IMG/VR virus record: IMGVR_UViG_3300032240_000420
Location: 1 to 24,480 of that record
DNA from: a virus
Length of the DNA stretch: 24,480 bases
Direction: 5' to 3' (one strand)
This document shows positions 2,696 to 24,480 of this stretch, in pieces. A program made the translations under genes and the position numbers. The notes under the pieces are model-generated. The model was not told the origin of the DNA, searched no databases, and was given only the letters and a program-made list of their open reading frames with translations. Positions within the stretch are counted from its first letter, which is position 1; every line of letters starts with the position of its first letter.

Positions 2696-4390
2696 TTATA
2701 GATTTGAGGTTAGGTAACCGGCTGGAAGTTGAGGTTTGTCTGAATCACCCCTATCTTGCCGCCATACATCACCAGAATCTACATCATATTCTTCTTCGGT
2801 TCCTGTCAATACAAATCCAAACGGAACCACATCTTCTTCGATTTGTTTTATTCTTTCTTGGTACATTGCTTCACGGAGATTGACATTGTTTAACTCTTTA
2901 AAGTAAGGGTTGGTTGTTAACCAACTAAACAACACCAATGGCATTACTAAGTCATCGTGATAACCATCATCAGCTTCATAGCTATCTCTTACCTGAATGA
3001 AGGTTGATATCTCTGAAATTATGTCAGCATCGGTAATCAAAAGTTTCTTTTCTTCTACTAATGCCTTAAAAGTAAAACAACCAATTCGTTTTACTCTCTT
3101 GTCGGTTTGAACACCCAACTGTGTTTTACCGCCACCAAAACCACCAGAAACAATCTGGCCACTCTTAGTGTTTCTATTTACAAAAACAATGTTTTCGTAT
3201 TCTAGTTCATTGTGCATAATATGTGCAACTTGTTCTGAGGAGTTAATCTCAATCAAAACATATGCCATATTATAGTCTTTAGCCACCTTATGTATAATAC
3301 TTGGATAGAGCATAGGTGCAATCTTATTATCTCTATACTTACCAACTAACTTATAAGGAACCTCTGTAATATCTATAATCACAAAAGCAGAGTAGTCACC
3401 ACCAACACCTTTGGCAGTATCGGCAACAATAACATAACTATGAGGCTTCTTGATTAGTTCCTCATTATCATTTCTTTCACCCTTAACTGGATAATCATAC
3501 AAATCTAACCCATCTTTGGAATAGACTGTTGGACAGGTCGACATATATTCGATAGTGTCCGAGTTGATTAATGTAAGGGACGAACCTAGGAACTTGCACA
3601 GAACTTCCTGGTTGTATTTTAAGTCACCTAGTTGTCTGCGTTGTTCTAAAGCCCACTTCTCATCTCTGCCTGGAATCTTAGAATATGGAATGAACATTGG
3701 CACAAAGTCATTATTGCCATTAACCGCATCATTCCAAAATTTCCAAAAGTGATTATAACCAAGTGGTGTTGAAGTAATCAGAATCTTTGTGGTCTGACCA
3801 GCAGAAATAACTGGATATACCGCAGTAAAAAACGCATCAGCAACAGTATTTGGAATAATTGCGGCTTCGTCAATATACAATAAGTTAACGGATTTACCAC
3901 GAATACCAGCAGCAGTCGTTGCAGCTGTAAAAACAATCGAACCATTTTCTAATTCAATGTCACCTTTATTCCATGTCTTAATACCTTGTTGCATCCATGC
4001 TGGCAAATGCTCAAACATTAACTGGTACCGTGACATAATTTCACGAGCAGTTGATGCTTTGTTAGCAAGAACGGCTACAGTTTTAGAATCTTGGAATAGA
4101 GTATACCAAAGAATGTATGCGGCAGCAGAAGTAGTTTTACCTTGCTGACGACCTTCCATAAGAATAACCTTTCGGTTATCATGGATTAATTTAATTTTTT
4201 CTTTTTGGCAATCGTAGAGTTTGAATGGCTGTATACCATGGTCTAGTGTTACAATGTAACAGTAATTATCAATAAAATATACAGGATCTTCAGCACACTT
4301 TGCAACTTCTAAAATCTGTTCCTCGGTATAGGATATTTCTATACCGGCTCGTTTTAGACTTGCATTACCATTATAACCATTATTAATCAT
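2696..4390 (-). CDS. 17: Terminase large subunit gp17 (packaging ATPase and nuclease)
   Basis: This 564 aa protein (T4: 610) is the DNA-packaging motor that docks on the portal, pumps DNA with ATP and cuts the concatemer. Visible ATPase motifs are Walker A RQQGKT (residues 81-86), Walker B LLYIDEAA with D174 and E175, and coupling motif TSTP (206-209). The RNase H-like nuclease domain follows, with candidate metal ligands D324 (VADTAKG), E381 (LIEINSS) and D479/D480 (GYHDDLVMP), in the order and spacing seen in T4 gp17. All catalytic motifs are intact. No strong ribosome site precedes the ATG, which lies 6 bases after the stop of the Dps-like gene, so coupled translation is likely. The unusual point is that the Dps-like gene separates it from the small subunit. 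Confidence 0.96.
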   Translation of the reverse strand: MINNGYNGNASLKRAGIEISYTEEQILEVAKCAEDPVYFIDNYCYIVTLDHGIQPFKLYDCQKEKIKLIHDNRKVILMEGRQQGKTTSAAAYILWYTLFQDSKTVAVLANKASTAREIMSRYQLMFEHLPAWMQQGIKTWNKGDIELENGSIVFTAATTAAGIRGKSVNLLYIDEAAIIPNTVADAFFTAVYPVISAGQTTKILITSTPLGYNHFWKFWNDAVNGNNDFVPMFIPYSKIPGRDEKWALEQRRQLGDLKYNQEVLCKFLGSSLTLINSDTIEYMSTCPTVYSKDGLDLYDYPVKGERNDNEELIKKPHSYVIVADTAKGVGGDYSAFVIIDITEVPYKLVGKYRDNKIAPMLYPSIIHKVAKDYNMAYVLIEINSSEQVAHIMHNELEYENIVFVNRNTKSGQIVSGGFGGGKTQLGVQTDKRVKRIGCFTFKALVEEKKLLITDADIISEISTFIQVRDSYEADDGYHDDLVMPLVLFSWLTTNPYFKELNNVNLREAMYQERIKQIEEDVVPFGFVLTGTEEEYDVDSGDVWRQDRGDSDKPQLPAGYLTSNL

Positions 4391-12808: not shown

Positions 12809-14440
12809 TTAAAATGTTCCACCAGAAATCATAGCAAAGGTAGGAACACCAGAGCTATTGATTGTTAAGACATGACCTTCAGTAGAAGATGATGCGGTTG
12901 CAAATGCAGATGTACCTTGGCCTAACAGAACACCATTGTTTGTAAATGTGCCGGCACCAGTACCACCTCTTGGTACACCTAGTGTGCCAGAAGTAACTGC
13001 GGAAGCATCAATTGCAATCGAAGTGTTATTAGCAGAACTGATACGACCATTTGCCTCAACTTTAAACGAAGCGACTGCCGATGCAGTACCGTAGTTACCA
13101 GCAGAGATTGTTAAGTTGGTGTAGTCAGTATTAGCAACAAAAGCGGCACCGTTTGCAACAATGAATGAAGCATTAGCAGCTGCAAAAGCGGCAGTAATAC
13201 TATTGTTCTGTGTTGTGTTAACACCAGCACTATTGTTTGCGGTAGCAAATGCTGAGTTAGCGTAACTAGCAGCACTATTAGCAACTGCAAATGCAGAGTT
13301 GCCATAAGAAGCCGCAGAATTAGCGACTGCAAAACCAGAGTTAGCTGCAATGAAACCAGAGTTAGCATAACTTGCGGCTGAATTGGCAACTGCAAATGCG
13401 GAGTTACCATATGAACCAGCACTTAATGCGTTTGTTGCAGCTGTATTTGCCTGTGTATAAGCATTTGTTGTATAGAGGTTAATGTCTTGACCGTTAATTG
13501 TAACAGAGTATGATGTTAAATTAGCAGTCAATGTGCCTGTGTTGGCAGCAGTTAGTGAGCCAGGAGCAAGAACGTTTGCAGTTGGGTCACTAGTTAAGTT
13601 TTGGAACAAGAAGTAGTTTGCACCAGCTTGTCTTACAAGACCGGTATATTTCTGACCACCTGAGTTATATGTTCCGTAGAAGCCGATATCAACTGTGTCA
13701 CCTGCCGTATTATTATTGGCAAGGTGAATTAATGAATCGCCTGTTGTAATTGTTTTTGTATCAACATAAGTTGTATTACCTTGAACTGTCAAGTTACCAG
13801 TAATAACCAAGTCAGCAGTAATTGTACCGCCAGTATTTGCGTTGATACTATTGTTAGCACGAGTAAATGCTGAGTTAGCATATGAGGCAGCAGAGTTTGC
13901 TGTGTAACTCGGAGTATTTGCCTGTAAGAAAGCTGCATTAGCAGTATTAAACGCAGAGTTGGCATATGAACCAGCAGAAGTTCCTGATGAACTTGCTGAG
14001 TTAGCTGCAGCAAAAGCGGCGTTAGCATATGAACCTGCAGAGTTAGCAGTTGCAAAGGCTGCGTTAGCGTAACTAGCGGCAGAGTTTGCTACATAACTTG
14101 GCGTATTCGCTTGTAAGAAAGCCGCATTAGCGGTATTGAAAGCTGCGTTTGCCTGTGCATATGCACCAGTGGAAAGAGCCGCAGAGTTAGCAGCTGCGAA
14201 GGCCGCATTAGCATACGAACCCGCAGAGTTAGCAGCATCAAATGCTGAATTTCCACGAGTATAGATTGTCGCTTGCTGGTCTAAGTAGAACTTACCGCCA
14301 ATGGCAATTGAACCTGTACCAGATGGTGAGCCGATGAAGAGCGTATTACTTGAGTAAGAATACGCTGGTTCTGCCACATTTAACGATGTCGGTGTCGCTG
14401 TCGTGGTAGAATATTTTAGTTGGATTGTGGTGTTTGCCAT
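12809..14440 (-). CDS. Ala-Asn repeat fibre protein (543 aa)
   Basis: This is a fibre protein in modular order. The N-terminal domain (residues 1-60) holds MANTTIQLKYSTTTATPTSL, VAEPAYSYSSNTLFIG and GGKFYLDQQ. An Ala-Asn heptad array covers ~64-200. A globular module (~205-345) has GNLTVQGNTTYVDT, DSLIHLANNNTAGD, GFYG and GLVRQAGANYFLFQNL, and is clearly homologous to the middle module of the 991 aa protein. A second heptad array follows (~345-455). The C-terminal domain has SGTLGVPRGGTGAGTF and LGQGTSAF, a module frequent in phage tail fibres. It ends ISGGTF. The start has an AGAGGA ribosome site and lies behind a perfect TATAAATA promoter. Its N-terminus is duplicated in the 83 aa gene just upstream. 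Confidence 0.82.
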   Translation of the reverse strand: MANTTIQLKYSTTTATPTSLNVAEPAYSYSSNTLFIGSPSGTGSIAIGGKFYLDQQATIYTRGNSAFDAANSAGSYANAAFAAANSAALSTGAYAQANAAFNTANAAFLQANTPSYVANSAASYANAAFATANSAGSYANAAFAAANSASSSGTSAGSYANSAFNTANAAFLQANTPSYTANSAASYANSAFTRANNSINANTGGTITADLVITGNLTVQGNTTYVDTKTITTGDSLIHLANNNTAGDTVDIGFYGTYNSGGQKYTGLVRQAGANYFLFQNLTSDPTANVLAPGSLTAANTGTLTANLTSYSVTINGQDINLYTTNAYTQANTAATNALSAGSYGNSAFAVANSAASYANSGFIAANSGFAVANSAASYGNSAFAVANSAASYANSAFATANNSAGVNTTQNNSITAAFAAANASFIVANGAAFVANTDYTNLTISAGNYGTASAVASFKVEANGRISSANNTSIAIDASAVTSGTLGVPRGGTGAGTFTNNGVLLGQGTSAFATASSSTEGHVLTINSSGVPTFAMISGGTF

Positions 14441-14482: not shown

Positions 14483-14500
14483 GGTACTTTAGAAAGTACC
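14483..14500 (-). other. Perfect 8-bp inverted repeat overlapping a stop codon
   Basis: GGTACTTT and AAAGTACC face each other across two bases and include the TAA stop of the 83 aa gene. On the minus strand it is followed by GTAAAATATAAATA, not a T run, so it is not a standard terminator. Its place immediately before a perfect late promoter suggests 3'-end protection, a weak terminator or a protein-binding palindrome. Only the symmetry is directly seen. Confidence 0.45.
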
Positions 14501-14740
14501 GCCTTGAATTGATGTGATATTTACTGAATTTGCAGCTGCATAGGCTGAATTTGCAGTATTAAAAATTACTTGTTGCTGGTCAACATAAAATTTACCACCG
14601 ACTGGCAATACTCCATTACCACCGGCAGTACCAATGAACAGGGTATTACTTACATACGAATACGCCGGTTCTGCAACATCCAATACTGTTGGTGAAGCAT
14701 TAGATGTGGACGACTTTAATTGTATTAATGTATTTGCCAT
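14489..14740 (-). CDS. Miniature fibre-like protein: attachment domain without shaft (83 aa)
   Basis: Residues 1-56 are a paralogue of the N-terminal domain of the 543 aa fibre next to it. MANTLIQLKSST matches MANTTIQLKYST, and VAEPAYSYVSNTLFIG and GGKFYVDQQ align without gaps. Only one heptad-like piece remains (NTANSAYAAANS), and the protein ends SIQGGTF, resembling the fibre's ISGGTF. It therefore looks like a fibre with shaft and tip removed. It is an intact frame whose ATG overlaps the upstream stop (TAATG). It could be a capping or competing subunit at the fibre attachment site, or a remnant of fibre-gene recombination. A virion structural role is inferred. Confidence 0.7.
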   Translation of the reverse strand: MANTLIQLKSSTSNASPTVLDVAEPAYSYVSNTLFIGTAGGNGVLPVGGKFYVDQQQVIFNTANSAYAAANSVNITSIQGGTF

Positions 14741-15362: not shown

Positions 15363-15385
15363 TCTAATTGGGTATTGATAGCTAC

Positions 15386-15409
15386 AAAAAAACCACCCGA
15401 AGGTGGCTT
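15386..15409 (-). terminator. Intrinsic terminator closing the adhesin locus
   Basis: On the minus strand CCACC and GGTGG pair around a TTCG tetraloop. G-U and A-U pairs extend the stem, and seven T residues follow. It lies 19 bases after the stop of the last MAHFAKV-family gene. This is a textbook factor-independent terminator for right-to-left transcription and the best one in the window. Confidence 0.88.
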
Positions 15410-15428: not shown

Positions 15429-15776
15429 TTACTCTACTTTGTCCCAACTTTGAGTAGATTCATTCCAATTATATACTTTATTATCCGTTGGATATGGTGT
15501 TGGTGCTTCCCACAACCAAGTAGTTTGATTTAATGTCCAACTAGGAAAAGGTTGTTGTGCATAGAACACATCATGTTCACGGTCATATGTGTAACCAACA
15601 CAAGCATAGTTACCACGCAAAGGTGTGCCATTTAATTTATGTTGATTGCCATATGTATTGTATGAAGTTTGGATCCATTCACCTGGACTTGTGTCCACAA
15701 ATGAATTAAAAAATTCAGCTTCCGCCACAATCACTTTAATAACTTTACCTTGGTCTACTTTTGCAAAATGTGCCAT
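15429..15776 (-). CDS. MAHFAKV-family adhesin partner protein, copy 3 (115 aa)
   Basis: One of three paralogues in the window, each directly downstream of a glycine-rich fibre gene. Shared blocks are MAHFAKVDQGKVIKVIVAE at the N-terminus, FF...F-DTSPGEWIQTSYNT (residues ~22-41), GTPLRGNYACVGYTYD, a PFPSWTLN-TT-LWEAP segment (~76-92) and WNESTQSWDKVE at the C-terminus. No catalytic residues, signal peptide or membrane segment are seen; it is rich in aromatic residues and probably β-rich. The family is, from memory, widespread in phages as a hypothetical protein. The ATG is preceded by AAGGAATAATT overlapping the fibre's stop. It is the last gene before the terminator. Its constant pairing with glycine-rich fibres suggests a tip, chaperone or attachment role; that is inference. 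Confidence 0.8.
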   Translation of the reverse strand: MAHFAKVDQGKVIKVIVAEAEFFNSFVDTSPGEWIQTSYNTYGNQHKLNGTPLRGNYACVGYTYDREHDVFYAQQPFPSWTLNQTTWLWEAPTPYPTDNKVYNWNESTQSWDKVE

Positions 15777-15785
15777 AATTATTCC

Positions 15786-16967
15786 TTAAGCCGTATATGT
15801 GCTAGATGATGTGAATGTGTGGATAGTATATCCGTCAGCGGATGTAACTGTTCCGCCTGTTCCACGCTGAGAACCAAGATAGCGAATAATTACAACTCCT
15901 GAACCACCTGAACCTGTGCCAGAGTTTACTTCACCACCACCGCCTCCACCACCAGTATTAGTAGTTCCAGAACCAGCAGCAGTACCTAATGCTCCACCGG
16001 CACCGCCACCTCCATTACCGCCACTTCCTGCTGTTCCAGAGCCATATACTGCGCCGCCTCCACCACCTGCTCGGAAGACAGCAGAGCCTGTAATATTTGA
16101 TGAAACGCCAACGCCGCCATTACCGGCAGTTGAAGCACCTAAATTTCCATTTCCGCCTACAGCACCTGCACCACCACCCCCACCTGATGTATATAGATTG
16201 GTTGGTCCAGAATATCCACCACCAGAACCACCAGCATAACCTTGACCTGCTGTTCCAGACCCGCCTGGAGAACCCGAATTATAGTTACCACCTCCGCCAG
16301 AACCTCCAGGACTACCCGCAGGTGATCCTGTTGAACCTTTACCACCTGCGACTGATGTAATTGTTGCTATTCCAGTACCAGAAAAAGAAGAATCGTTTCC
16401 ATTGGTTGACGCTCCTCCTCCTGCTCCTACGGTTACTGTGTAGGTAGTTCCACCAGTTAAACTAAGTGCAGTTTCTGCGGAACCTCCGCCACCAGAAGAT
16501 TGGCCACTTACAGAACTTCGGTATCCTCCAGCACCACCACCGCCACCTGGATTTCCATAATTTCCGCCGCCGCCACCGCCAGCAATAATTAAATATTCAA
16601 CTGGATAAGTAAATGTAAAAGACTGCCAAGCTCCCGCTTGGTAAATTTCATTAACTCCAAGAGTTGTGTTGAAACGAATTTGTCCGTTAGCGGCAGTTAC
16701 TGGCCTCTGTACCGTTGTACCAGAAGCAATCTGTGTGAAACCTGTTCCGCTTGTAGTTACATTACCTAAAAATGATGGATTGGAAACAATCTTATCGGTG
16801 GTAATTGTGTTACTTGCAATCTTAGCAGCAGTAATAGAACCGTTAGCAATACCAGTAGTGATACCTGAACTGTTGGCAGATAATAGGGTTGTACCAGTAT
16901 TACTCAGAATACTAAAGTTGTTATCTGAATCTAATTGAATCGAAGATATTTGAATTGAACCGGCCAT
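15786..16967 (-). CDS. Glycine-rich tail fibre adhesin, copy 3 (393 aa)
   Basis: A probable receptor-binding fibre in three parts. The N-terminal part (~1-60) begins MAGSIQISSIQLDSDNNFS and carries stalk-like repeats IANGSITAAKIASNTIT. A linker motif (~85-118), TVQRPVTAANGQIRFNTT then YQAGAWQSF, is shared with the other fibres here. The C-terminal ~265 residues, starting YLIIAGGGGGG, are dominated by Gly runs and end GYTIHTFTSSSTYTA. Glycine-rich adhesins such as gp38 of T-even-type phages form polyglycine helices that present variable loops to host receptors; homology to gp38 is not claimed, only the analogous design. It starts 2 bases after the 97 aa gene, whose end supplies an AAAGAG site. 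A MAHFAKV gene follows after 9 bases. Confidence 0.82.
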   Translation of the reverse strand: MAGSIQISSIQLDSDNNFSILSNTGTTLLSANSSGITTGIANGSITAAKIASNTITTDKIVSNPSFLGNVTTSGTGFTQIASGTTVQRPVTAANGQIRFNTTLGVNEIYQAGAWQSFTFTYPVEYLIIAGGGGGGNYGNPGGGGGAGGYRSSVSGQSSGGGGSAETALSLTGGTTYTVTVGAGGGASTNGNDSSFSGTGIATITSVAGGKGSTGSPAGSPGGSGGGGNYNSGSPGGSGTAGQGYAGGSGGGYSGPTNLYTSGGGGGAGAVGGNGNLGASTAGNGGVGVSSNITGSAVFRAGGGGGAVYGSGTAGSGGNGGGGAGGALGTAAGSGTTNTGGGGGGGEVNSGTGSGGSGVVIIRYLGSQRGTGGTVTSADGYTIHTFTSSSTYTA

Positions 16968-16969
16968 AA

Positions 16970-17263
16970 TTACTCTTTAGGATATTTGTCTTTAACAGCT
17001 TGCACTTTAGCAAGCATTTCTTCGGCTGCAGAACCGCCTTTCCACAACGCATCTAATTGGTCACCAATAGATGGATATTCAGCTGCTCTTTTATGTTGAT
17101 ATTGCCAAATTGCATTAAGTCTAGCTAACTCAGTATTTATTTGATTATTTGTAACAGGTGCGGTTGTAGGGTCATTCCATACAATTGTATCTTCATTGTA
17201 AATAGCTACTTGTGCGCCAGGAACTAAAGATAAAATAGCGTCTAATTTTGATGGTGCTTTCAT
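16970..17263 (-). CDS. YPSI-motif fibre partner protein, copy 2 (97 aa)
   Basis: A small protein paralogous at its C-terminus to the 94 aa protein at 17983-18267. Shared blocks are RAAEYPSI-x2-QLD-x-L-x2-GG and a final VKDKYPKE. The N-terminal half (MKAPSKLDAILSLVPGAQVAIYN) differs from its paralogue. Similar RAAEYPSI-QLD segments occur in many phage tail-region proteins, often described as fibre- or tail-assembly related; I cannot name the family securely. An upstream ATG at 17281 would add six residues, but the ATG at 17263 gives the TAATG overlap used elsewhere here and has GGGAGA about 10 bases upstream, so I prefer it. It lies between two fibre genes. The role is unknown, with assembly or attachment of the preceding fibre the most plausible. 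Confidence 0.72.
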   Translation of the reverse strand: MKAPSKLDAILSLVPGAQVAIYNEDTIVWNDPTTAPVTNNQINTELARLNAIWQYQHKRAAEYPSIGDQLDALWKGGSAAEEMLAKVQAVKDKYPKE

Positions 17264-17979
17264 TATGCTGCAATCTCCCAAACTACAAATGAACTTCTAA
17301 CATCTGGTGAATTTGTGTTTGAATTATTATTAAACCAAATACCATTAGTTGTTGGATAAACTTGAACTTTTGTGGTAACAGAAGATGTTGTACCAGAAGT
17401 ATAGTATGTTGTTAATGGAAAACCCCAAGAAATGGCTCCAGAACCAGTATAATAAATGTCACTAAAAGTTCCTATGGTACTAGAATTTCCACCAGTATTT
17501 ACCAATCTAACACTTGAATAAGCGCTTTGTGAAGTTTGCCAAAAAGCACCAATGAATTGAACAACAATTACACTTGTTGCAGAAATAGGAGTATATGTTA
17601 TAGAAACTCCAATATCTTGCCATGATGCGGTACTACTTGAAAAAGTTGTCGTGCTAACAGATGTTACACATTGTAATACTGTTCCTGCAGGTAAATTTGA
17701 TGTAGCTAGTCTTGGAATTCTTGCTGATGGAATAGTGCCACTTGTAATAGTGTTTGCGTTTACACTTGCAATAGTAGCTGCGTTAATTGTTCCGTTCGCA
17801 TTAAATGCTGAATTGACTAAACTCAATGCAGATGGAGATACAGTATTACCAGCAATAGTTAAATTTCCACTAACGACATTCAATCCAGTAGAATCAATAA
17901 ATGCCACATTGGCAGAAGCAATTTGAAATTTAAGATTACTATCTGCTTTTAGTGTATCTACGTTTAAAATTCCGGCCAT
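17263..17979 (-). CDS. Tail fibre protein with β-rich C-terminal domain (238 aa)
   Basis: A short fibre. The N-terminus MAGILNVDTLKADSNLKFQI resembles the MAG-starts of the 393 and 398 aa fibres. Residues ~36-95 are Ser/Asn/Ala/Thr-rich β-stalk sequence (SGNLTIAGNTVSPSAL, ITSGTIPSARIP). The C-terminal ~135 residues begin PAGTVLQCVTSVSTTTFSS with WQDIGVSITYTPISATSVIVV and end SSFVVWEIAA. This domain type is frequent at the ends of phage fibres and is likely a β-sandwich tip. It starts 3 bases after the 94 aa gene, whose end supplies AAAGAG. Its stop overlaps the next start (TAATG). It has no glycine-rich domain, unlike its neighbour. Confidence 0.75.
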   Translation of the reverse strand: MAGILNVDTLKADSNLKFQIASANVAFIDSTGLNVVSGNLTIAGNTVSPSALSLVNSAFNANGTINAATIASVNANTITSGTIPSARIPRLATSNLPAGTVLQCVTSVSTTTFSSSTASWQDIGVSITYTPISATSVIVVQFIGAFWQTSQSAYSSVRLVNTGGNSSTIGTFSDIYYTGSGAISWGFPLTTYYTSGTTSSVTTKVQVYPTTNGIWFNNNSNTNSPDVRSSFVVWEIAA

Positions 17980-17982
17980 ATT

Positions 17983-18267
17983 TTACTCTTTAGGATATTT
18001 GTCTTTAACAGCTTTGATTGTAGCTTTCCACTCAGTCAAACCGCCGTGATATAAGGTATCTAGTTGCTCTTCAATAGAAGGATATTCAGCCGCTCTTTGT
18101 GCTTTACACATTTCTGATTGAACTTCTGCCCAAGTAATTTTATCGTCTGAACGCCATTCAATAATTTCATTAAATTCGGTTTCAGTAGTTGGTTCTTCAC
18201 CATCAAAAATGTAACTTAATCCATTAGCGATTGCTAATTTGTGTAATGTTTCTGTAAATAAACTCAT
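17983..18267 (-). CDS. YPSI-motif fibre partner protein, copy 1 (94 aa)
   Basis: Paralogue of the 97 aa protein at 16970-17263 through its C-terminal ~45 residues: RAAEYPSIEEQLDTLYHGG, then a KAVKDKYPKE ending. Its N-terminal half (MSLFTETLHKLAIANGLSYI, then EIIEWRSDDKITWAEVQSEM) is different, so the two share a tail and differ in head. No membrane or signal sequence is seen; it looks helical. It lies 9 bases after the 398 aa fibre and 3 before the 238 aa fibre, with only a weak A-rich ribosome site. Fibre-assembly or attachment partner is the best guess. Confidence 0.72.
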   Translation of the reverse strand: MSLFTETLHKLAIANGLSYIFDGEEPTTETEFNEIIEWRSDDKITWAEVQSEMCKAQRAAEYPSIEEQLDTLYHGGLTEWKATIKAVKDKYPKE

Positions 18268-18276
18268 TTTATTCTT

Positions 18277-19473
18277 TTAGGTTACAGTAATTGGAACAGT
18301 TAAATTTGAATATCTAAATTTTGGTAAACCTGCTTGCCATGATGCTGCGGATCCATTTGGATATCCATTTCCAAAATACCAATAAATATTGTTTGTTCCT
18401 ACAGGAACTGTTGTTGTCCATTTATACAATTGTGTATCATTAACAAAAAGAGCAATTCTTCTTGAACTGATTCCAACAGTATCAGATTTAATGACTAAAG
18501 TTAATACTGCGGTGCTAGGCCAATCATAGTTACTAGTTCCTTCTCGGTTTGTACCAGTAATTGCATTACCGCCTGCCGCACCACCACCATTCATCCAATG
18601 CCATGTTCTGTTTGTTCCTACTCCTGCGTTCATAAACCAAGCGGCATATCCGCTTGGAGGAGCACTACTACTGGATTGGTTCATTGAGTTTGTTTGTGAT
18701 GATAATACTGATGAACTGCCAGCAGCATACCATTCTACACCCCATTGAAAAAATTGGTCATTCGATTGTGCAAAACTTGAAGCTGTTCCACCAAATCCAT
18801 ATAATTGAATCACAGTATCATAACTAGATGAAGTTCTAATCGAATACTTAGAAACTATACCATATTCATAGGATCCTGAAGCGTAACTAGAAGTACCAAC
18901 AGAATCAATAATTGCCATACGAGCACCATAATAATTTGAATCATCAATACTGTTTGTTGATAATCCAGCATTTACTACAGCAGGATAAGACCAAGTAGTG
19001 GAAATTTGTGATGGTAATATTGATGCAACTGCAGCTGTATTCCAACCACCGTTAGCATAAAATTCTAATGCAGAGTTTGTAGAATTAAATCTAAATGCAC
19101 CGTTAGCACCAGCAGGTTTTTGTGCATCAGTTCCACCAGGAAGAATTATTGCACCTGTGCCGTTTGCTGATAAAGTATCCAAACTAACTCTAGTAATTGA
19201 ACCATTGGCAATTTGTGTTGAAGTAATTGTGTTACTAGTAATTAAAGCGGCATTAATTGATGCGTTAGCAATTTGTGAACCAGTAATTACACCGCTAATA
19301 GAAGTATTAGCAATCGTTGCAACACCGATAGTGCCATCATAACCAATCATTTTTGTGCCGGTATTACTGTAAATACCGGATGCGTTAATAGTAGCAACTC
19401 GTGTGTTGCTAACATTCATCTGAAGGAATGTGCTTTCAGTTTGTATTGTATCAATTATTAATTTGCCAGCCAT
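18277..19473 (-). CDS. Tail fibre protein with lectin-like C-terminal domain (398 aa)
   Basis: A modular fibre. The N-terminus is MAGKLIIDTIQTESTFLQM. A stalk (~35-120) holds I-A-N-x-S-I type repeats (TIANTSISGVITGSQIANAS, SNTITSTQIANGSI), of which SNTITSTQIANGSI is identical in the 381 aa fibre. A linker (~125-150) has QKPAGANGAFRFNSTN and LEFYANGGWN. The C-terminal ~245 residues are Ser/Trp/Tyr-rich, with RIALFVNDTQLYKWTTTVP and IYWYFGNG near the end. This looks like a β-sandwich carbohydrate-binding fold, but that is inference. The ribosome site is AAGG 6 bases before ATG. It is followed by a YPSI partner gene, not a MAHFAKV gene. Confidence 0.76.
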   Translation of the reverse strand: MAGKLIIDTIQTESTFLQMNVSNTRVATINASGIYSNTGTKMIGYDGTIGVATIANTSISGVITGSQIANASINAALITSNTITSTQIANGSITRVSLDTLSANGTGAIILPGGTDAQKPAGANGAFRFNSTNSALEFYANGGWNTAAVASILPSQISTTWSYPAVVNAGLSTNSIDDSNYYGARMAIIDSVGTSSYASGSYEYGIVSKYSIRTSSSYDTVIQLYGFGGTASSFAQSNDQFFQWGVEWYAAGSSSVLSSQTNSMNQSSSSAPPSGYAAWFMNAGVGTNRTWHWMNGGGAAGGNAITGTNREGTSNYDWPSTAVLTLVIKSDTVGISSRRIALFVNDTQLYKWTTTVPVGTNNIYWYFGNGYPNGSAASWQAGLPKFRYSNLTVPITVT

Positions 19474-19481
19474 TTTTTACC

Positions 19482-19904
19482 TTAAACTATTGTCCACGTG
19501 GAATTATTGGAAACTGTTACGACAACATTGTTGGCCACAGTTAATGGCCCGGCAGATGACGCATTATAACCAGAAGTAATCGTCACATTCTCATTTAGAA
19601 TATTAGCGTTAATCCTAACGATTCCGTAGGAATCGGCAGAAAGATATGGGTTGGTCATTACTCGTTGACCCAAATAGATTACTTCGATATTACTGGTACC
19701 TGATGGAGGTGCCTCAGAAAATACGATTTGACCATTTATGGCCGCATATGAATCTGTTTTTTGTTTTACACCAGAAACGAACACCAATAAAGATGCTTCA
19801 TTACCGTATGGGTAAGATAGTGTAAATGTGGTTGCTGAACCTGTACCTGAGAAGAACTCGGATGTAAATGTTCCTGCGACTGCTTGTTGGCCTAAGTATG
19901 ACAT
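19482..19904 (-). CDS. Short fibre-like structural protein (140 aa)
   Basis: Residues ~15-80 contain a β-module with TTFTLSYPYGNEASLLVFVSG, IVFSEAPPSG and NIEVIYLGQR, a pattern frequent in phage fibre and structural proteins. The C-terminus (ENVTITSGYNASSAGPLTV, then VSNNSTWTIV) matches endings used by other phage fibre proteins. It has no shaft repeats and no glycine-rich domain. The start has no clear ribosome site; a GATAAATA box lies 7 bases before ATG. It is located between a MAHFAKV gene and the 398 aa fibre. Probably a small virion or fibre-base protein. Confidence 0.68.
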   Translation of the reverse strand: MSYLGQQAVAGTFTSEFFSGTGSATTFTLSYPYGNEASLLVFVSGVKQKTDSYAAINGQIVFSEAPPSGTSNIEVIYLGQRVMTNPYLSADSYGIVRINANILNENVTITSGYNASSAGPLTVANNVVVTVSNNSTWTIV

Positions 19905-19911
19905 ATTCTTT

Positions 19912-19919
19912 TATTTATC
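19912..19919 (-). promoter_or_regulatory. Candidate late promoter GATAAATA upstream of the 140 aa gene
   Basis: GATAAATA followed by AAAGAA matches the T4 late pattern NATAAATA and recurs, with the same flank, at 21437-21444. With T4 geometry transcription would begin about 2 bases before the ATG, leaving no room for a ribosome site, and none is seen. Confidence 0.5.
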
Positions 19920-19923
19920 TCGT

Positions 19924-20271
19924 TTATTCCACAGCGTTCCAATTTTGGGTTGATTCGCTCCAATCATATCGTTTGCCATCTTTTGGCATTTCTGTTGGTG
20001 CTTCCCACAAACAAGTGGTATTGTTTAATGTCCAAGAAGCAAATGGCTTAGGTGGAATGAAAGCATCTTTTGATGCATCATATGTTCCACCAATTGTAGC
20101 AAAGTTTTTTCTTAAAGGCGTTCCGCCTAATGAGTGGACACCACCATGAGTATTATAGCTTGTTTGAATCCAATCACCTGGTTCCGTATCAATAAAATTA
20201 TTAAAAAACTCAGGCTCAGCTACAATAACTTTAATAACTCTACCTTGGTCTACTTTTGCAAAATGCGCCAT
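19924..20271 (-). CDS. MAHFAKV-family adhesin partner protein, copy 2 (115 aa)
   Basis: Paralogue of the genes at 15429-15776 and 23204-23548. Shared blocks: MAHFAKVDQGRVIKVIVAE, FFNNFIDTEPGDWIQTSYNT, GTPLRKNFATIGGTYD, then DAFIPPKPFASWTLNNTT and WSESTQNWNAVE. Length is the same as copy 3. It begins 9 bases after the 381 aa glycine-rich fibre, and the AAGGA ribosome site overlaps that gene's TAA stop as in the other two cassettes. No enzyme motif is visible. The KPFASWTLN and WEAP segments are the most conserved and may form the binding surface. Role is inferred from context only. Confidence 0.8.
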   Translation of the reverse strand: MAHFAKVDQGRVIKVIVAEPEFFNNFIDTEPGDWIQTSYNTHGGVHSLGGTPLRKNFATIGGTYDASKDAFIPPKPFASWTLNNTTCLWEAPTEMPKDGKRYDWSESTQNWNAVE

Positions 20272-20280
20272 TCTTATTCC

Positions 20281-21426
20281 TTAAGCCGTAAATGTGCCAG
20301 ATGATGTAAAGGTGTGATAAGTATAACCACCAGTTGAACTGATTGTTCCACCGCTTCCTCGTGTGGATCCAAGGTATCGAACAATTGCAAGACCTGAACC
20401 ACCAGCACCAGAACCCGAACCTTGAGCTGCACCAGCACTAGTTAATCCTCGACCTCCGCCACCGCCACCTGTGTTTGTTGTACCGTTTGTAGCAGGAGTT
20501 CCGTTAACACCTCCGTTACCGCCGCCGCCTGTTCCGCCTTGGCCAATACCACCTGTGCTGTTATAATTGTAAGCACCACCGCCAGCGCCAGAAGCATAGT
20601 ATGTTCCTAATGACTGCCAGTTTGCACCTGTTCCACCGCCGCCACCCGTTGTTAGATTTGGAGCGTTGCTTCCTGGCGCACCAGCACCACCACCGCCGCC
20701 ACCACCAAATTGTGTTCCTGATGTTTGAGCAGTACCGCCAGGATTTCCTTGACCTGGAGTTCCTGAACCAGCTGATCCGTTAGTTCCACTATCTCCGCCG
20801 CCACCGCCACCTGAACCGCCTGGACCACCATTACCACCTGTACCGCCATTTCCGTAACCACCACCAATAGCAGTTGAACCAAAACCAGTAGATGGTGTTC
20901 CTTGACTTCCTGCAGGATTTGTTGAAGTGCCGCCGCCACCACCAATTACTATTGAGTATCCTGTTCCACCAATAACAGTTGTAGAAGCAGCAACATATCC
21001 ACCTGCGCCACCTCCACCAATACCGCCGCCTGACCCACCACCCGCAATAACAAGATAATCAACTGTATATGCACCAGATGTTGCAGTAAAAGAAACCCAT
21101 AAAGCATTATTAGCATCATACCATTCAGGATAACCTAATGTAGTATTGTAACGCATATAACCAGCACTATTAGCACCAGGTCTTTGTTGAGTTGTTCCAA
21201 CTGGCATTTTTAAAGCGCCAGTACCATTAGCAGTTGCTACATCCAAATTAACAAACGATATTGAACCATTAGCAATCTGTGTGCTAGTAATTGTGTTACT
21301 AGCAATTTGTGCTGAAGTAACTGTACCATTTGCAATCAGATTACCTGTGATTGAGTATGCAACAAGGTCAGCCGCTTGAACTGTATTATTTGCGATGGAT
21401 AAAGTGTTTATTCTTGATAAAGGCAT
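20281..21426 (-). CDS. Glycine-rich tail fibre adhesin, copy 2 (381 aa)
   Basis: A receptor-binding type fibre. The N-terminus MPLSRINTLSIANNTVQAAD leads into stalk repeats (~25-57) LIANGTVTSAQIASNTIT, then the SNTITSTQIANGSI block also found in the 398 aa fibre. The linker (~80-112) has QRPGANSAGYMRYNTT and EWYDANNALWVSF. The glycine-rich domain starts YLVIAGGGSGGG (~124) and runs to GYTYHTFTSSGTFTA at the end. The DNA shows strong third-position and Gly-codon bias here, which explains the proline-rich shadow frames on the other strand. A GATAAATA box lies 10 bases before the ATG; no clear ribosome site. A MAHFAKV gene follows after 9 bases. Confidence 0.82.
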   Translation of the reverse strand: MPLSRINTLSIANNTVQAADLVAYSITGNLIANGTVTSAQIASNTITSTQIANGSISFVNLDVATANGTGALKMPVGTTQQRPGANSAGYMRYNTTLGYPEWYDANNALWVSFTATSGAYTVDYLVIAGGGSGGGIGGGGAGGYVAASTTVIGGTGYSIVIGGGGGTSTNPAGSQGTPSTGFGSTAIGGGYGNGGTGGNGGPGGSGGGGGGDSGTNGSAGSGTPGQGNPGGTAQTSGTQFGGGGGGGAGAPGSNAPNLTTGGGGGTGANWQSLGTYYASGAGGGAYNYNSTGGIGQGGTGGGGNGGVNGTPATNGTTNTGGGGGGRGLTSAGAAQGSGSGAGGSGLAIVRYLGSTRGSGGTISSTGGYTYHTFTSSGTFTA

Positions 21427-21436
21427 AGTAGTCTTT

Positions 21437-21444
21437 TATTTATC
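21437..21444 (-). promoter_or_regulatory. Candidate late promoter GATAAATA upstream of the 381 aa adhesin
   Basis: Identical octamer and AAAAGA flank to the box at 19912-19919. The predicted leader is about 5 bases, too short for a normal ribosome site. It lies just after the stop of the 54 aa gene. Confidence 0.5.
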
Positions 21445-21446
21445 TC

Positions 21447-21611
21447 TTATTCGTCAGCAGGTTCTGGAGTGTTACCTTCAGCAAGCCAAGCAACAACTTC
21501 TGGATCATTCAACAGTCGTGATTCGTTTCCATTTGAAGAAACAATACCAATGTTTTGATTCGTCCTTAGGTCTTTATAATATTTCCAACCTGTAAAATTT
21601 ACACTAATCAT
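21447..21611 (-). CDS. Small protein overlapping the 425 aa fibre (54 aa)
   Basis: An intact 54-codon frame fills the gap between two fibre genes. Its ATG (21611-21609) overlaps the fibre stop as ATGA, so it is probably translated by reinitiation. The product begins MISVNFTGWKYYKDLRTNQN and ends DPEVVAWLAEGNTPEPADE. Endings of the type WLAEGNTPEPAD are familiar from small phage proteins near tail fibres and from ends of fibre-assembly-like proteins. It may be the partner of the 425 aa fibre, filling the place that the MAHFAKV or YPSI genes fill elsewhere. A truncated remnant of a longer assembly protein is an alternative. Confidence 0.7.
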   Translation of the reverse strand: MISVNFTGWKYYKDLRTNQNIGIVSSNGNESRLLNDPEVVAWLAEGNTPEPADE

Positions 21612-22885
21612 AGTTCACATCCTGTAAATAAAAGTTTTGATGTAGCGGATAATTCACTGGCTAACATACACGCTTGTGCATTACTAAAACTGCTAGGAGC
21701 TACTTGACATCTAATTGTTGCATAAGTTGTTGATCCACTTGAAAATACAAGTCCAATTAATGAAGGTGTAGTTGAACCAACATAAAGCACAAGGCTTGAA
21801 AGTGTTCCTGTATATGTTATTCCGGTTGGAGCAACTCTTGGTTGCACAGGAAGTGTAATTCCGTGAAATGAGTAATTTGTACCATACGTCATTCCGTTTA
21901 TTGCTAATTCTTGCCCAGTTATGAATCTATACATTGGTAGATATCGTTGACACAAAGCTAACTCTGTGGTATATTGGCGATATTCAAAAGGAGTTGCTGT
22001 TGAACCAGCTTCAAATTGGACACCTGTAATATACCAAGTAGCAGCATTTGTGCCAACTACTGATGTTGCACCAGTTGGTGCAGTATAGTTTGCACCAGCC
22101 CAAGCACCAGAAGTTCCACTCATCGTAGAACCAGCACCTAAATTAAATATTACTAAAATGCCTGTTGTGTTGGTTTTATCCCATGTTCCTGATTGGTCAC
22201 CAGGAATCGTAATAATTTTTTGTTCCCAAGTATCAGCTGCAACGATGGTGTAACTGAAAGGATAAGAACGATTAGCACTATTATTTCTAATTGCACCACC
22301 ATGAGTTCCTGTTAAAGAACTACGAACCCAAAATGATAAAGTTACCGTTTTAGCACTAGCAGTTCCCCATGCCAAATCAGCACTATTGTAACCCTCAATT
22401 AAATGGTAAACTTCAAACTCATCAGTTGAGGTAACAGAATAAGAAGATAATGAAGTTACTTTTAATGAATTGGAAAATCCAGCAACTGTGTTTGCGGAAG
22501 AATCTTGTTGAATTGAAAATTTAGCAGCTTGAGCACCATAAGTTTTCCATCTATCAGCGGAATATACTCCACTAGTTGATTGTGTAATAGCGGCACCATC
22601 ATTTCTTTGGTCAATCTGCATGGCGCCGTTAATAATTCTATTCCGCATACCAGCAAATACGCTAGCATTACCTTGAGCTCTCATATAGTTCTCAACAGAA
22701 CCGGTCTGAAATTGGTTATTTGCTACTGAGTTGGCACTTAAACTAATTGCCGTATTTGAAGCCGCAACGATAACACCAGAACCATCAATCTGAAATGATG
22801 GGATAGTATTAGCCGATCCAAAAGTATTGGATGTAATATTATTGGTTACTGCGATGACAGCAGGAACGACCTTGGTAATTGCCAC
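21608..22885 (-). CDS. Tail fibre protein with carbohydrate-binding-type C-terminal domain (425 aa), GTG start
   Basis: A modular fibre that begins with GTG (22885-22883) behind an AGGA site 8 bases upstream; no ATG is available there. The N-terminal ~75 residues form a β-stalk with SFQIDGSGVIVAASNTAISL. From ~80 comes the widely distributed fibre domain beginning MRNRIINGAMQIDQRN and SADRWKTYG, then VTLSFWVRSSLTGTHGGAI, SYPFSYTIVAADTWEQKIIT and YITGVQFEAGS with PFEYRQY. This layout resembles jelly-roll carbohydrate-binding domains of phage fibres. The last ~110 residues are a separate β-rich tip ending TGCEL. It is followed by a 54 aa gene overlapping by ATGA, and preceded by a CTAAATAG box. 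Confidence 0.83.
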   Translation of the reverse strand: MAITKVVPAVIAVTNNITSNTFGSANTIPSFQIDGSGVIVAASNTAISLSANSVANNQFQTGSVENYMRAQGNASVFAGMRNRIINGAMQIDQRNDGAAITQSTSGVYSADRWKTYGAQAAKFSIQQDSSANTVAGFSNSLKVTSLSSYSVTSTDEFEVYHLIEGYNSADLAWGTASAKTVTLSFWVRSSLTGTHGGAIRNNSANRSYPFSYTIVAADTWEQKIITIPGDQSGTWDKTNTTGILVIFNLGAGSTMSGTSGAWAGANYTAPTGATSVVGTNAATWYITGVQFEAGSTATPFEYRQYTTELALCQRYLPMYRFITGQELAINGMTYGTNYSFHGITLPVQPRVAPTGITYTGTLSSLVLYVGSTTPSLIGLVFSSGSTTYATIRCQVAPSSFSNAQACMLASELSATSKLLFTGCEL

Positions 22886-22905
22886 TTTTATGTCCTATTA
22901 ATGGT

Positions 22906-22913
22906 CTATTTAG
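22906..22913 (-). promoter_or_regulatory. Candidate late promoter CTAAATAG upstream of the 425 aa fibre
   Basis: CTAAATAG overlaps the stop of the 91 aa gene and is followed by ACCATTAATAGGACA. Predicted transcription start is near 22900, leaving a leader of about 15 bases that contains the AGGA ribosome site. Same octamer as at 2684 and 15355. Confidence 0.5.
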
Positions 22914-23185
22914 TTGCTCTGTTCGGTGAAATGTTTAATACATTCCGATATTGTTTGTTGTCTAATATACTCATCACGAATCTCTTGTGAAGTCGGTGGT
23001 TCAAGAAACTTCTGTTCAGTTTCGCTCCATTGGTTTTCGTCCCAACGAGTGATTCTGAATGTACCGCCTTCTGCTGTCAGTTCATATAAACATCCAGGTC
23101 TTAGGATACCCATAACACTATTGATACCCCAAGAAAATCCGTTTTCATTCGTTAATGCTTCGATTGTTTCTTTTACTGTTGCCAT
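22910..23185 (-). CDS. Small protein of unknown function in the adhesin locus (91 aa)
   Basis: Not recognised. It begins MATVKETIEALTNENGFSWG and has a β-like centre (CLYELTAEGGTFRITRWDEN) with a helical, charged C-terminus (SQEIRDEYIRQQTISECIKH). Two Cys (positions ~32 and ~82) are present; no metal-site spacing, signal peptide or membrane segment. The ATG has a GAGGA site about 8 bases upstream. It lies 18 bases after a MAHFAKV gene and just before the promoter of the 425 aa fibre. A fibre accessory function is suggested only by location. Confidence 0.7.
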   Translation of the reverse strand: MATVKETIEALTNENGFSWGINSVMGILRPGCLYELTAEGGTFRITRWDENQWSETEQKFLEPPTSQEIRDEYIRQQTISECIKHFTEQSN

Positions 23186-23203
23186 AATATAGTCCTCTAA
23201 TAA

Positions 23204-23548
23204 TTAAAATTCAACCCAACTCTGAGTTGATTCATTCCATTCATAATTTTTATCATCAGTTGGTTTTGCTACTGGAGGTTCCCAATCACAGATTTCTTCG
23301 TTAAGTGTCCAACTTGAAAATGGTTGTGGTGGAATAAAAGCATCCAAAACACTATCATATGAATAACCAACAGAAGCGAAATTCTTTCTTAATGGTGTTC
23401 CACCTAAACGATGAACACCATGAGTTGTATTGATACTGGTTTGAATCCAGTTGCCAGGAGAAGTGTCTTTAAATGTTACAAAGAACTCTGGTTCAGCTAC
23501 AATAACTTGAACTACTTTTCCATCAACTACTTTTGCAAAATGTGCCAT
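23204..23548 (-). CDS. MAHFAKV-family adhesin partner protein, copy 1 (114 aa)
   Basis: The most divergent of the three paralogues: MAHFAKVVDGKVVQVIVAE, FFVTFKDTSPGNWIQTSINT, GTPLRKNFASVGYSYD, DAFIPPQPFSSWTLNEEI and WNESTQSWVEF. It starts 13 bases after the glycine-rich fibre, with the AAGGAATAA ribosome site overlapping the fibre stop, as in the other cassettes. It carries DWEPP where the others have LWEAP. The repeated pairing across three diverged cassettes argues that the two proteins act together. Confidence 0.8.
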   Translation of the reverse strand: MAHFAKVVDGKVVQVIVAEPEFFVTFKDTSPGNWIQTSINTTHGVHRLGGTPLRKNFASVGYSYDSVLDAFIPPQPFSSWTLNEEICDWEPPVAKPTDDKNYEWNESTQSWVEF

Positions 23549-23561
23549 TGTAATTTATTCC

Positions 23562-24480
23562 TTAAGCTGTGTATGTACCAGATGATGTGAAGGTGTGAAT
23601 AGTGTAACCATTAGAAGATGTTATAGTTCCACCCGCTCCCCTTTGGCCGCCAACATACGCAATAATAATAACACCTGAACCACCTGGATTTCCTTGACCT
23701 GGAGATGCATCTGAAGCAGAACCACCGCCACCGCCTTTATTTGTTCCACCAAATCCGGTTCCTGAAGCATATGTTGAAGATGGTCCACCTCCTCCATTTC
23801 CGCCGGATCCTGGCGTTCCATTCCATCCGCCACCACCACCGCCGCCAGCATAAAAAACACCAGAACCACTAATACTAACAGGAACTCCTACTCCTCCAGT
23901 TCCACCATTAACAGGAGGTGCATCTGAACCTGCAGCACCTGCACCACCACCGCCACCGCCTTGACCAGATGGAGTTGGATTAGCTGTGCCTTTTCCACCA
24001 GGATATCCTTGACCGGATGTTCCTGCGCCGCCAGTTGATGGTGCAGGATAATTAGCGCCGTTTCCACCGCCTGATCCACCAGAAGCACCTTGTGCTGGAT
24101 GTGCTGGTTGAGAAGGATCACTATATGTTCCTCCAAAACCACCACCAATTGATGTTATTGTTCCGGCTGTACCAGAAAGACTAGAAGGACTTCCAGATGC
24201 ACCAATGTAATTTGCTCCAGCTGCACCTCCAGAACCACCAGCACCAATCGTTACTGTATAAACTTCTCCAGGATTTACAACTAATTGTGTTTCTGAAATA
24301 GCAGGAGAACCTCCGCCAGAAGTTGAACCCCAATTTGTTCTTAATCCACCAGCACCACCGCCACCGCCATGCCATCTTGAAGCACCGCCACCACCGCCAG
24401 CAACAACCAAATAACTTAGTGTATATGCGGATTTGTTATCAGCAACAGCAGACCAATTATTTCCTGTCCAAACTTCAACA
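23562..24480 (-). CDS. Glycine-rich tail fibre adhesin, copy 1 (5' end outside window)
   Basis: The frame stays open to the right edge, so the N-terminus is missing. The visible part begins VEVWTGNNWSAVADNKSAYT, equivalent to the YQAGAW linker of the other adhesins. It then enters the glycine-rich domain at SYLVVAGGGGGASRWHGGG and runs about 280 residues to GYTIHTFTSSGTYTA. The TTG at 24410-24408 is internal, not the start, because the upstream codons match the family. The domain plan and C-terminal motif are the same as in the 393 and 381 aa adhesins, with different loop sequence between Gly runs, as expected for receptor specificity. A MAHFAKV gene follows. Confidence 0.82.
   Translation of the reverse strand, partial: VEVWTGNNWSAVADNKSAYTLSYLVVAGGGGGASRWHGGGGGAGGLRTNWGSTSGGGSPAISETQLVVNPGEVYTVTIGAGGSGGAAGANYIGASGSPSSLSGTAGTITSIGGGFGGTYSDPSQPAHPAQGASGGSGGGNGANYPAPSTGGAGTSGQGYPGGKGTANPTPSGQGGGGGGAGAAGSDAPPVNGGTGGVGVPVSISGSGVFYAGGGGGGGWNGTPGSGGNGGGGPSSTYASGTGFGGTNKGGGGGSASDASPGQGNPGGSGVIIIAYVGGQRGAGGTITSSNGYTIHTFTSSGTYTA

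Follow-up and report, generated by a model that had tools for sequence, protein, structure and literature searches.

Small partner genes matched to tail fibre head type in phage adhesin cassettes, and MAHFAKV as a probable folding partner of glycine-rich heads

Introduction

Fibre assembly proteins of the Tfa type, as in Mu, lambda and P2, come from a small gene that lies directly 3' of the one for the fibre, and they are matched to the fibre's C-terminus. The virus record IMGVR_UViG_3300032240_000420 from IMG/VR, 24,480 bases long and referred to in its entirety as the window, carries between positions 15429 and 24480 a series of genes, all on the - strand, which are arranged as units of one fibre and one small gene, and this raises the question of what the small genes do and whether their family depends on the fibre that they follow. 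Three of them are paralogues of a family here called MAHFAKV, each lying behind a glycine-rich fibre. The two genes are paired across many loci, matched by type and exchanged together, and both products are similar in fold to two members of one solved complex; we therefore consider it likely that MAHFAKV is a dedicated folding partner of tumour necrosis factor (TNF)-like, glycine-rich heads, within adhesin cassettes in which head and partner are matched by type.

The fibre region of the window

The genes of the region, in the order in which they are read, are as follows.

23562..24480, - strand: glycine-rich fibre 1 (distal part, 305 amino acids), with a glycine-rich head and an HTFTSSGTYTA end; its 5' end is cut by the window edge
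23204..23548, - strand: MAHFAKV partner 1 (114 amino acids), 13 bases past fibre 1
22910..23185, - strand: 91-amino acid gene with an LRPG motif, after MAHFAKV 1
21608..22885, - strand: 425-amino acid fibre of the CRYY type with a GTG start; matches phrog_4492 (tail fiber protein), E 1.4e-53
21447..21611, - strand: 54-amino acid partner of the PADE type, with an ATGA overlap with the 425-amino acid fibre
20281..21426, - strand: glycine-rich fibre 2 (381 amino acids)
19924..20271, - strand: MAHFAKV partner 2 (115 amino acids), 9 bases past fibre 2
18277..19473, - strand: 398-amino acid fibre, its stalk related to that of glycine-rich fibre 2 and its C-terminus unrelated
17983..18267, - strand: YPSI partner (94 amino acids), following the 398-amino acid fibre
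17263..17979, - strand: 238-amino acid fibre of the EIA type, ending VVWEIAA
16970..17263, - strand: YPSI partner (97 amino acids), its start overlapping the stop of the 238-amino acid fibre (TAATG)
15786..16967, - strand: glycine-rich fibre 3 (393 amino acids), with the Pfam domain Gly_rich_2; its head model matches Pam3 gp24, Z 11.9
15429..15776, - strand: MAHFAKV partner 3 (115 amino acids), 9 bases past fibre 3; model confidence (predicted local distance difference test, pLDDT) 96

The open reading frames (ORFs) and coordinates bear out the layout described in an initial annotation, in which three glycine-rich fibres are each followed at 9-13 bases by a MAHFAKV paralogue, the 398- and 238-amino acid fibres by YPSI genes, and the 425-amino acid fibre by an overlapping 54-amino acid gene. 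The second and third MAHFAKV proteins share 65-68% identity with the first, and fibre 3 scores 33.4 bits against Gly_rich_2 (PF21722), above the curated cut-off of 24.3. Neither Pfam nor NCBIfam returned anything for the partner proteins of the window, and a near relative of the window was not found among the phage records searched.

Pairing of partner family and fibre type

The same annotation had proposed that the partner family tracks the C-terminal type of the fibre. Six pairs on one contig are too few for such a statement, and the rule therefore rests on comparative counts. Viral contigs were gathered in four ways, by MAHFAKV, by two glycine-rich motifs regardless of partner, and by YPSI, and the gene directly 5' of each distinct partner gene was assigned to a class. 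This tabulation, which had been suggested as a check, gave a clear preference for fibre type, so that the proposal holds across hundreds of distinct loci: 221 of the 255 distinct MAHFAKV genes had a glycine-rich fibre immediately before them, as against 1 of 105 YPSI genes, and the PADE family, to which the 54-amino acid gene belongs, was preceded by a CRYY fibre in 47 of 47. For YPSI, 70 genes followed fibres with a MEIAA-like end, and more than one non-glycine fibre type is served by this family. CRYY fibres and PADE genes form a near-exclusive pair, as in the other direction 45 of 46 non-edge CRYY fibres were followed by PADE. About 13% of MAHFAKV genes were preceded by something other than a glycine-rich fibre, and in several of these cases the preceding gene is the truncated end of a glycine-rich fibre, or one small gene intervenes.

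The frequency of a glycine-rich 5' gene differed between MAHFAKV and YPSI with a Fisher p of 5e-70 (subset with long 5' genes; uncorrected for relatedness), but because related contigs are not independent this value is descriptive only, and it is the clustered counts and the Melnitz exchange described below which carry the argument. After clustering at 60% identity, 32 of 39 MAHFAKV clusters still followed a glycine-rich fibre. In bacterial and archaeal genomes from another, separate collection, where the homologues were mostly distant, 19 of 29 lay directly after a glycine-rich fibre and a few more had one gene between, while two followed another fibre head, ending ENPFKYANAR. Among annotated phages the pair was found in Autographiviridae podoviruses with Roseobacter-group and Pelagibacter hosts, in the Melnitz myoviruses and in cyanophage Bellamy.

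The pairing rule is strong from partner to fibre and weak from glycine-rich fibre to partner: of approximately 525 non-edge glycine-rich fibres, 220 (~40%) had MAHFAKV as the next gene and 115 a further glycine-rich fibre, whatever came after the remainder being of other kinds.

Several further observations concern these families. MAHFAKV-like genes of cyanomyoviruses (T4-GC 616 in S-SSM5 and P-RSM4; loci L410, L413 and L414, around 4001-4381) lie in a cluster annotated as 2OG-Fe(II) oxygenase/ferrochelatase. Long MAHFAKV ORFs (L268, L098 and L303) were considered as natural fusions and rejected, being wrong-frame readings through glycine-rich DNA. Two annotated hypothetical genes at 3292-3987 of Pontimonas phage phiPsal1 (MG835450.1; L405) likewise result from reading in the wrong frame, in this case through a glycine-rich fibre head of 302 amino acids at 3093-4001, and it is this head which adjoins a MAHFAKV gene. 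Genes of the 91-amino acid LRPG type adjoin MAHFAKV genes, before or after them (window 22910-23185; L406 3116-3400; L261, L318 and L109), and may encode a second partner of glycine-rich fibres; a model of this family was weak and strayed into YPSI proteins, and counts from it were left aside.

Joint exchange of head and partner

That a pair is inherited as a cassette, as had been suggested, is seen directly in Melnitz-2 and Melnitz-3, near-identical isolates in which the flanks of the fibre region are 99.7-100% identical. Gene 175 keeps its first ~100 residues, but its glycine-rich head is replaced by one of another type, and gene 176, which is MAHFAKV in the one isolate, encodes an unrelated protein of 85 amino acids in the other; at genes 181/182 a non-glycine fibre with a 74-amino acid partner is replaced by a glycine-rich fibre with MAHFAKV; and at genes 177/178 a CRYY head with a 62-amino acid partner gives way to a head ending LLYEIAN, accompanied by a partner that has a helical domain of the APC type at its end. 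The exchanged blocks start within the fibre gene and stop past the small gene. The stalks in the window are in keeping with this, that of glycine-rich fibre 2 resembling the stalk of the YPSI-paired 398-amino acid fibre (Z 11.6, N-terminal 100 amino acids) almost as closely as that of glycine-rich fibre 3 (Z 13.6); as fibre 2 and the 398-amino acid fibre differ in head and in partner, the partner follows the head and not the stalk.

The initial annotation had also pointed to a common fusion of stop codon and ribosome site at the three glycine-rich junctions, and TTAAGGAATAA indeed occurs exactly three times in the window (15779-15789, 20274-20284 and 23555-23565), each time at a glycine-rich/MAHFAKV junction, with a chance expectation of 0.02. 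As a functional junction signal it was rejected, since few of the other loci carry it and their junctions vary, with overlaps of 4 or 1 bases and gaps of mostly 8-14. Because junctions elsewhere differ, the recurrence of TTAAGGAATAA most likely reflects duplication of one module within this phage and not a general signal.

Fold of MAHFAKV and of the glycine-rich head

MAHFAKV corresponds to phrog_7759 (E 5.8e-29, residues 1-114 on profile positions 1-121 of 125), which carries no assigned function, as had been anticipated for this family. No relevant Pfam family, Caudo_TAP included, was matched at E 0.1 by any of 100 members, NCBIfam gave no match, comparison of the MAHFAKV and YPSI sequences with PDB chains found nothing meaningful, and the viral models matched by Foldseek were mainly those of phage proteins that are uncharacterised. 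An AlphaFold2 model built from 100 aligned members has a pLDDT of 96, and both its top Foldseek match and its only VIA match among the PDB chains compared is chain 7ypx_a (7YPX), Pam3 gp25. The superposition places residues 1-73 on gp25 chain residues 3-56 (Z 5.7, 2.0 A, 52 residues), within the fibre-binding beta-sandwich. Beyond residue 25 the model contains no helix, and the last ~40 residues (about 74-115) form an irregular, tryptophan-rich extension. The proteins are glycine-poor, with a mean identity of 57% in the N-terminal and 47% in the C-terminal part. A read-through model of fibre head and MAHFAKV, in which the stop was read as Q and the 9-base gap kept in frame, reached a pLDDT of 90 and a predicted template modelling score (pTM) of 0.75, from which no interface is claimed.

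The model of the head of fibre 3 (15786-16967) matches Pam3 gp24 over 157 residues with 27% identity, and also the tail-tip protein of mycobacteriophage Bxb1 (Z 12.9), so that this head is of the Pam3 gp24 type, a TNF-like sandwich with glycine-rich loops. A strand motif, HTFTSSGT, lies ahead of the glycine-rich head in 109 of 149 scorable heads ending GIVIIRY and in just 2 of 115 heads ending FTSSGT (Fisher p 6e-37). This placement suggests that the adhesin domain has been circularly permuted or has swapped a strand, and MAHFAKV is found after both arrangements, with the motif in front or C-terminal.

The YPSI proteins are Tfa-like in design: their N-termini vary (29% mean identity) and their C-termini are conserved (71%), though the gathering of this family through a C-terminal motif inflates the contrast.

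Comparison with known systems

Pam3 gp25, the chaperone of the glycine-rich fibre gp24 (PDB 7YPX), whose domain limits and function have been described (PMC9608196), is the only solved helper of a glycine-rich fibre. As in the window, a glycine-rich, TNF-like head is followed by a small gene, and the similarity extends to both products. However, gp25 has a helical C-terminal trimerisation domain where MAHFAKV has its tryptophan-rich extension, and the three heads of the window differ in carrying an HTFTSSGTYTA strand at the C-terminus.

MAHFAKV shares with the Tfa proteins (Caudo_TAP) of Mu, lambda and P2 type the position directly 3' of the fibre, a beta N-domain and the match to the fibre C-terminus (in part PMC9608196), but differs in the lack of a Pfam match and of a modelled helical C-domain. 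The marine fibres of Alteromonas phages V22 (gp26/gp27) and A5 (gp8/gp9) likewise have a dedicated chaperone downstream, in a module exchanged between unrelated phages (PMC7289586, PMC10579305). V22 gp27, unlike MAHFAKV, is a protein of 21.8 kDa similar to proteins with a DUF4376 C-terminus, and a glycine-rich character of the V22 fibre is not described in the portions of these two reports compared here. T4 gp37/gp38 and S16-type gp38 also follow the order of fibre then small gene, and S16 gp38 bears a polyglycine-rich domain; there, however, the glycine-rich part sits in the small tip protein, whereas here it sits in the fibre, and MAHFAKV thus lacks the polyglycine lattice which defines small tip proteins of the S16 gp38 kind.

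Function of the partner

That a fibre can have its own chaperone encoded downstream is already established from T4, Mu, Pam3 and V22; what is new here is that the family is assigned, that the matching is put in numbers and that a trimerisation domain is missing. Gene pairing taken together with the fold matches to both gp24 and gp25, each of them moderate alone, makes a dedicated chaperone the best explanation for MAHFAKV. An adhesin cassette would then pair the distal head of a trimeric fibre, itself exchangeable, with a small assembly partner which is encoded directly 3' and belongs to a family matched to the head fold: MAHFAKV for heads of the Pam3 gp24 kind, the YPSI family for non-glycine heads and the 54-amino acid family for CRYY heads. 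As an intermolecular chaperone, MAHFAKV would bind the head physically, its N-terminal beta-sandwich (about 1-73) probably lying against the side of the TNF-like/glycine-rich head as does the equivalent domain of gp25, and would shield the glycine-rich loops until the trimer is registered, and would be released before maturation; its C-terminal extension (about 74-115) takes the place of the helical trimerisation domain. The initial annotation had left each small gene as either a cognate chaperone or a tip protein; for MAHFAKV the match to the fibre-binding domain of gp25 favours the former and leaves the latter the less favoured. In favour too is a profile of MAHFAKV 1-79, which matches the N-termini of Tfa-like small partners of other fibres with a probability of 96% (E 2e-9), two of these partners having a helical C-domain.

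A number of points weigh against this interpretation. The match to gp25 is middling (Foldseek E 1.4, Z 5.7). The set of Tfa-like partners behind the profile match was picked by eye for resemblance. MAHFAKV, of 115 amino acids as against 162 in gp25, is without the helical C-domain to which the trimerisation of gp25 and TfaMu is attributed (PMC9608196), and it is therefore likened to gp25 but not filed as a member of Tfa. More than half of glycine-rich fibres have no adjoining MAHFAKV, which is thus not universally needed in cis. In Melnitz-3 the head of gene 183 has been swapped from non-glycine to glycine-rich with no MAHFAKV behind it (L084 18312-19922 compared with L415 8376-10058), and one partner may therefore serve several fibres. 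Lastly, distant homologues in cyanomyoviruses S-SSM5, P-RSM4 and S-MS29 adjoin genes annotated as 2OG/ferrochelatase, with no glycine-rich fibre, so that the wider family may have other roles.

The alternative which fares best, though we think it unlikely, is that MAHFAKV is a permanent tip or cap protein, kept in the virion and touching the receptor, as Mu Tfa and S16 gp38 remain on the fibre (PMC7289586). The lack of a helical trimerisation domain and the conservation of MAHFAKV along its whole length are compatible with such a role; however, a receptor-binding tip would be expected to vary, which does not fit that same high conservation, the part that binds the receptor is likely to be the glycine-rich head, and gp25, the structural relative, covers the receptor-binding loops and is missing from the virions of Pam3 (PMC9608196).

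Less probable again, and in our opinion improbable, is that the pairing is a conserved neighbourhood only, with recombination breakpoints flanking both genes and no functional interaction between the products. MAHFAKV distance tracks the N-terminus of the fibre (r 0.40) nearly as well as its distal 260 amino acids (r 0.49), which means that some of the link is explained by phylogeny, and Mantel tests on these distances do not separate co-evolution from shared ancestry. Against a mere neighbourhood, the same heads occur with the same partner across podo- and myoviruses, the Melnitz exchanges stop past the partner gene and place a different partner with each head type in the same slot, and both partners match two members of one solved complex.

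That the partner instead acts in translation or regulation, for example by controlling how the fibre gene is expressed, is very improbable, for although the genes are tightly coupled and often overlap, the fold and profile matches are to fibre-chaperone domains and not to nucleic-acid binders, and the family to which the partner belongs goes with the type of protein that forms the head.

Beyond a dedicated folding partner for one kind of head, it is conceivable, and we offer it tentatively, that aquatic phages use a typed system of adhesins and chaperones: each head fold would fit its partner family as a plug fits its socket, and the two would be swapped jointly at a fixed stalk, with MAHFAKV as a minimal chaperone reduced to the fibre-binding domain alone, possibly capping each head of the trimer. 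A minimal chaperone of this sort would test how much of Tfa or gp25 fibre folding needs. The assignment proposes a function for a widespread phage family, phrog_7759, and provides a rule for annotation whereby a MAHFAKV gene points to a glycine-rich, receptor-binding head immediately upstream of it and a PADE gene to a CRYY head, which allows the partners to be used for finding host-recognition genes in aquatic phages that are uncultured. The pairing also hints at which small gene to co-express when fibres are produced in the laboratory.

Other features of the window

Just past the last MAHFAKV gene, at 15383-15408 on the - strand, a hairpin (CCACC-TTCG-GGTGG) followed by a T run was seen by eye, being absent from the scan listing on that strand, and is the probable end of the fibre operon. 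Further along, 12809-14440 encodes a 543-amino acid protein with many ANSA(A/G)SYANSAF repeats, the N-terminus of which is closely similar to the product of an 83-amino acid gene at 14489-14740 (Z 38).

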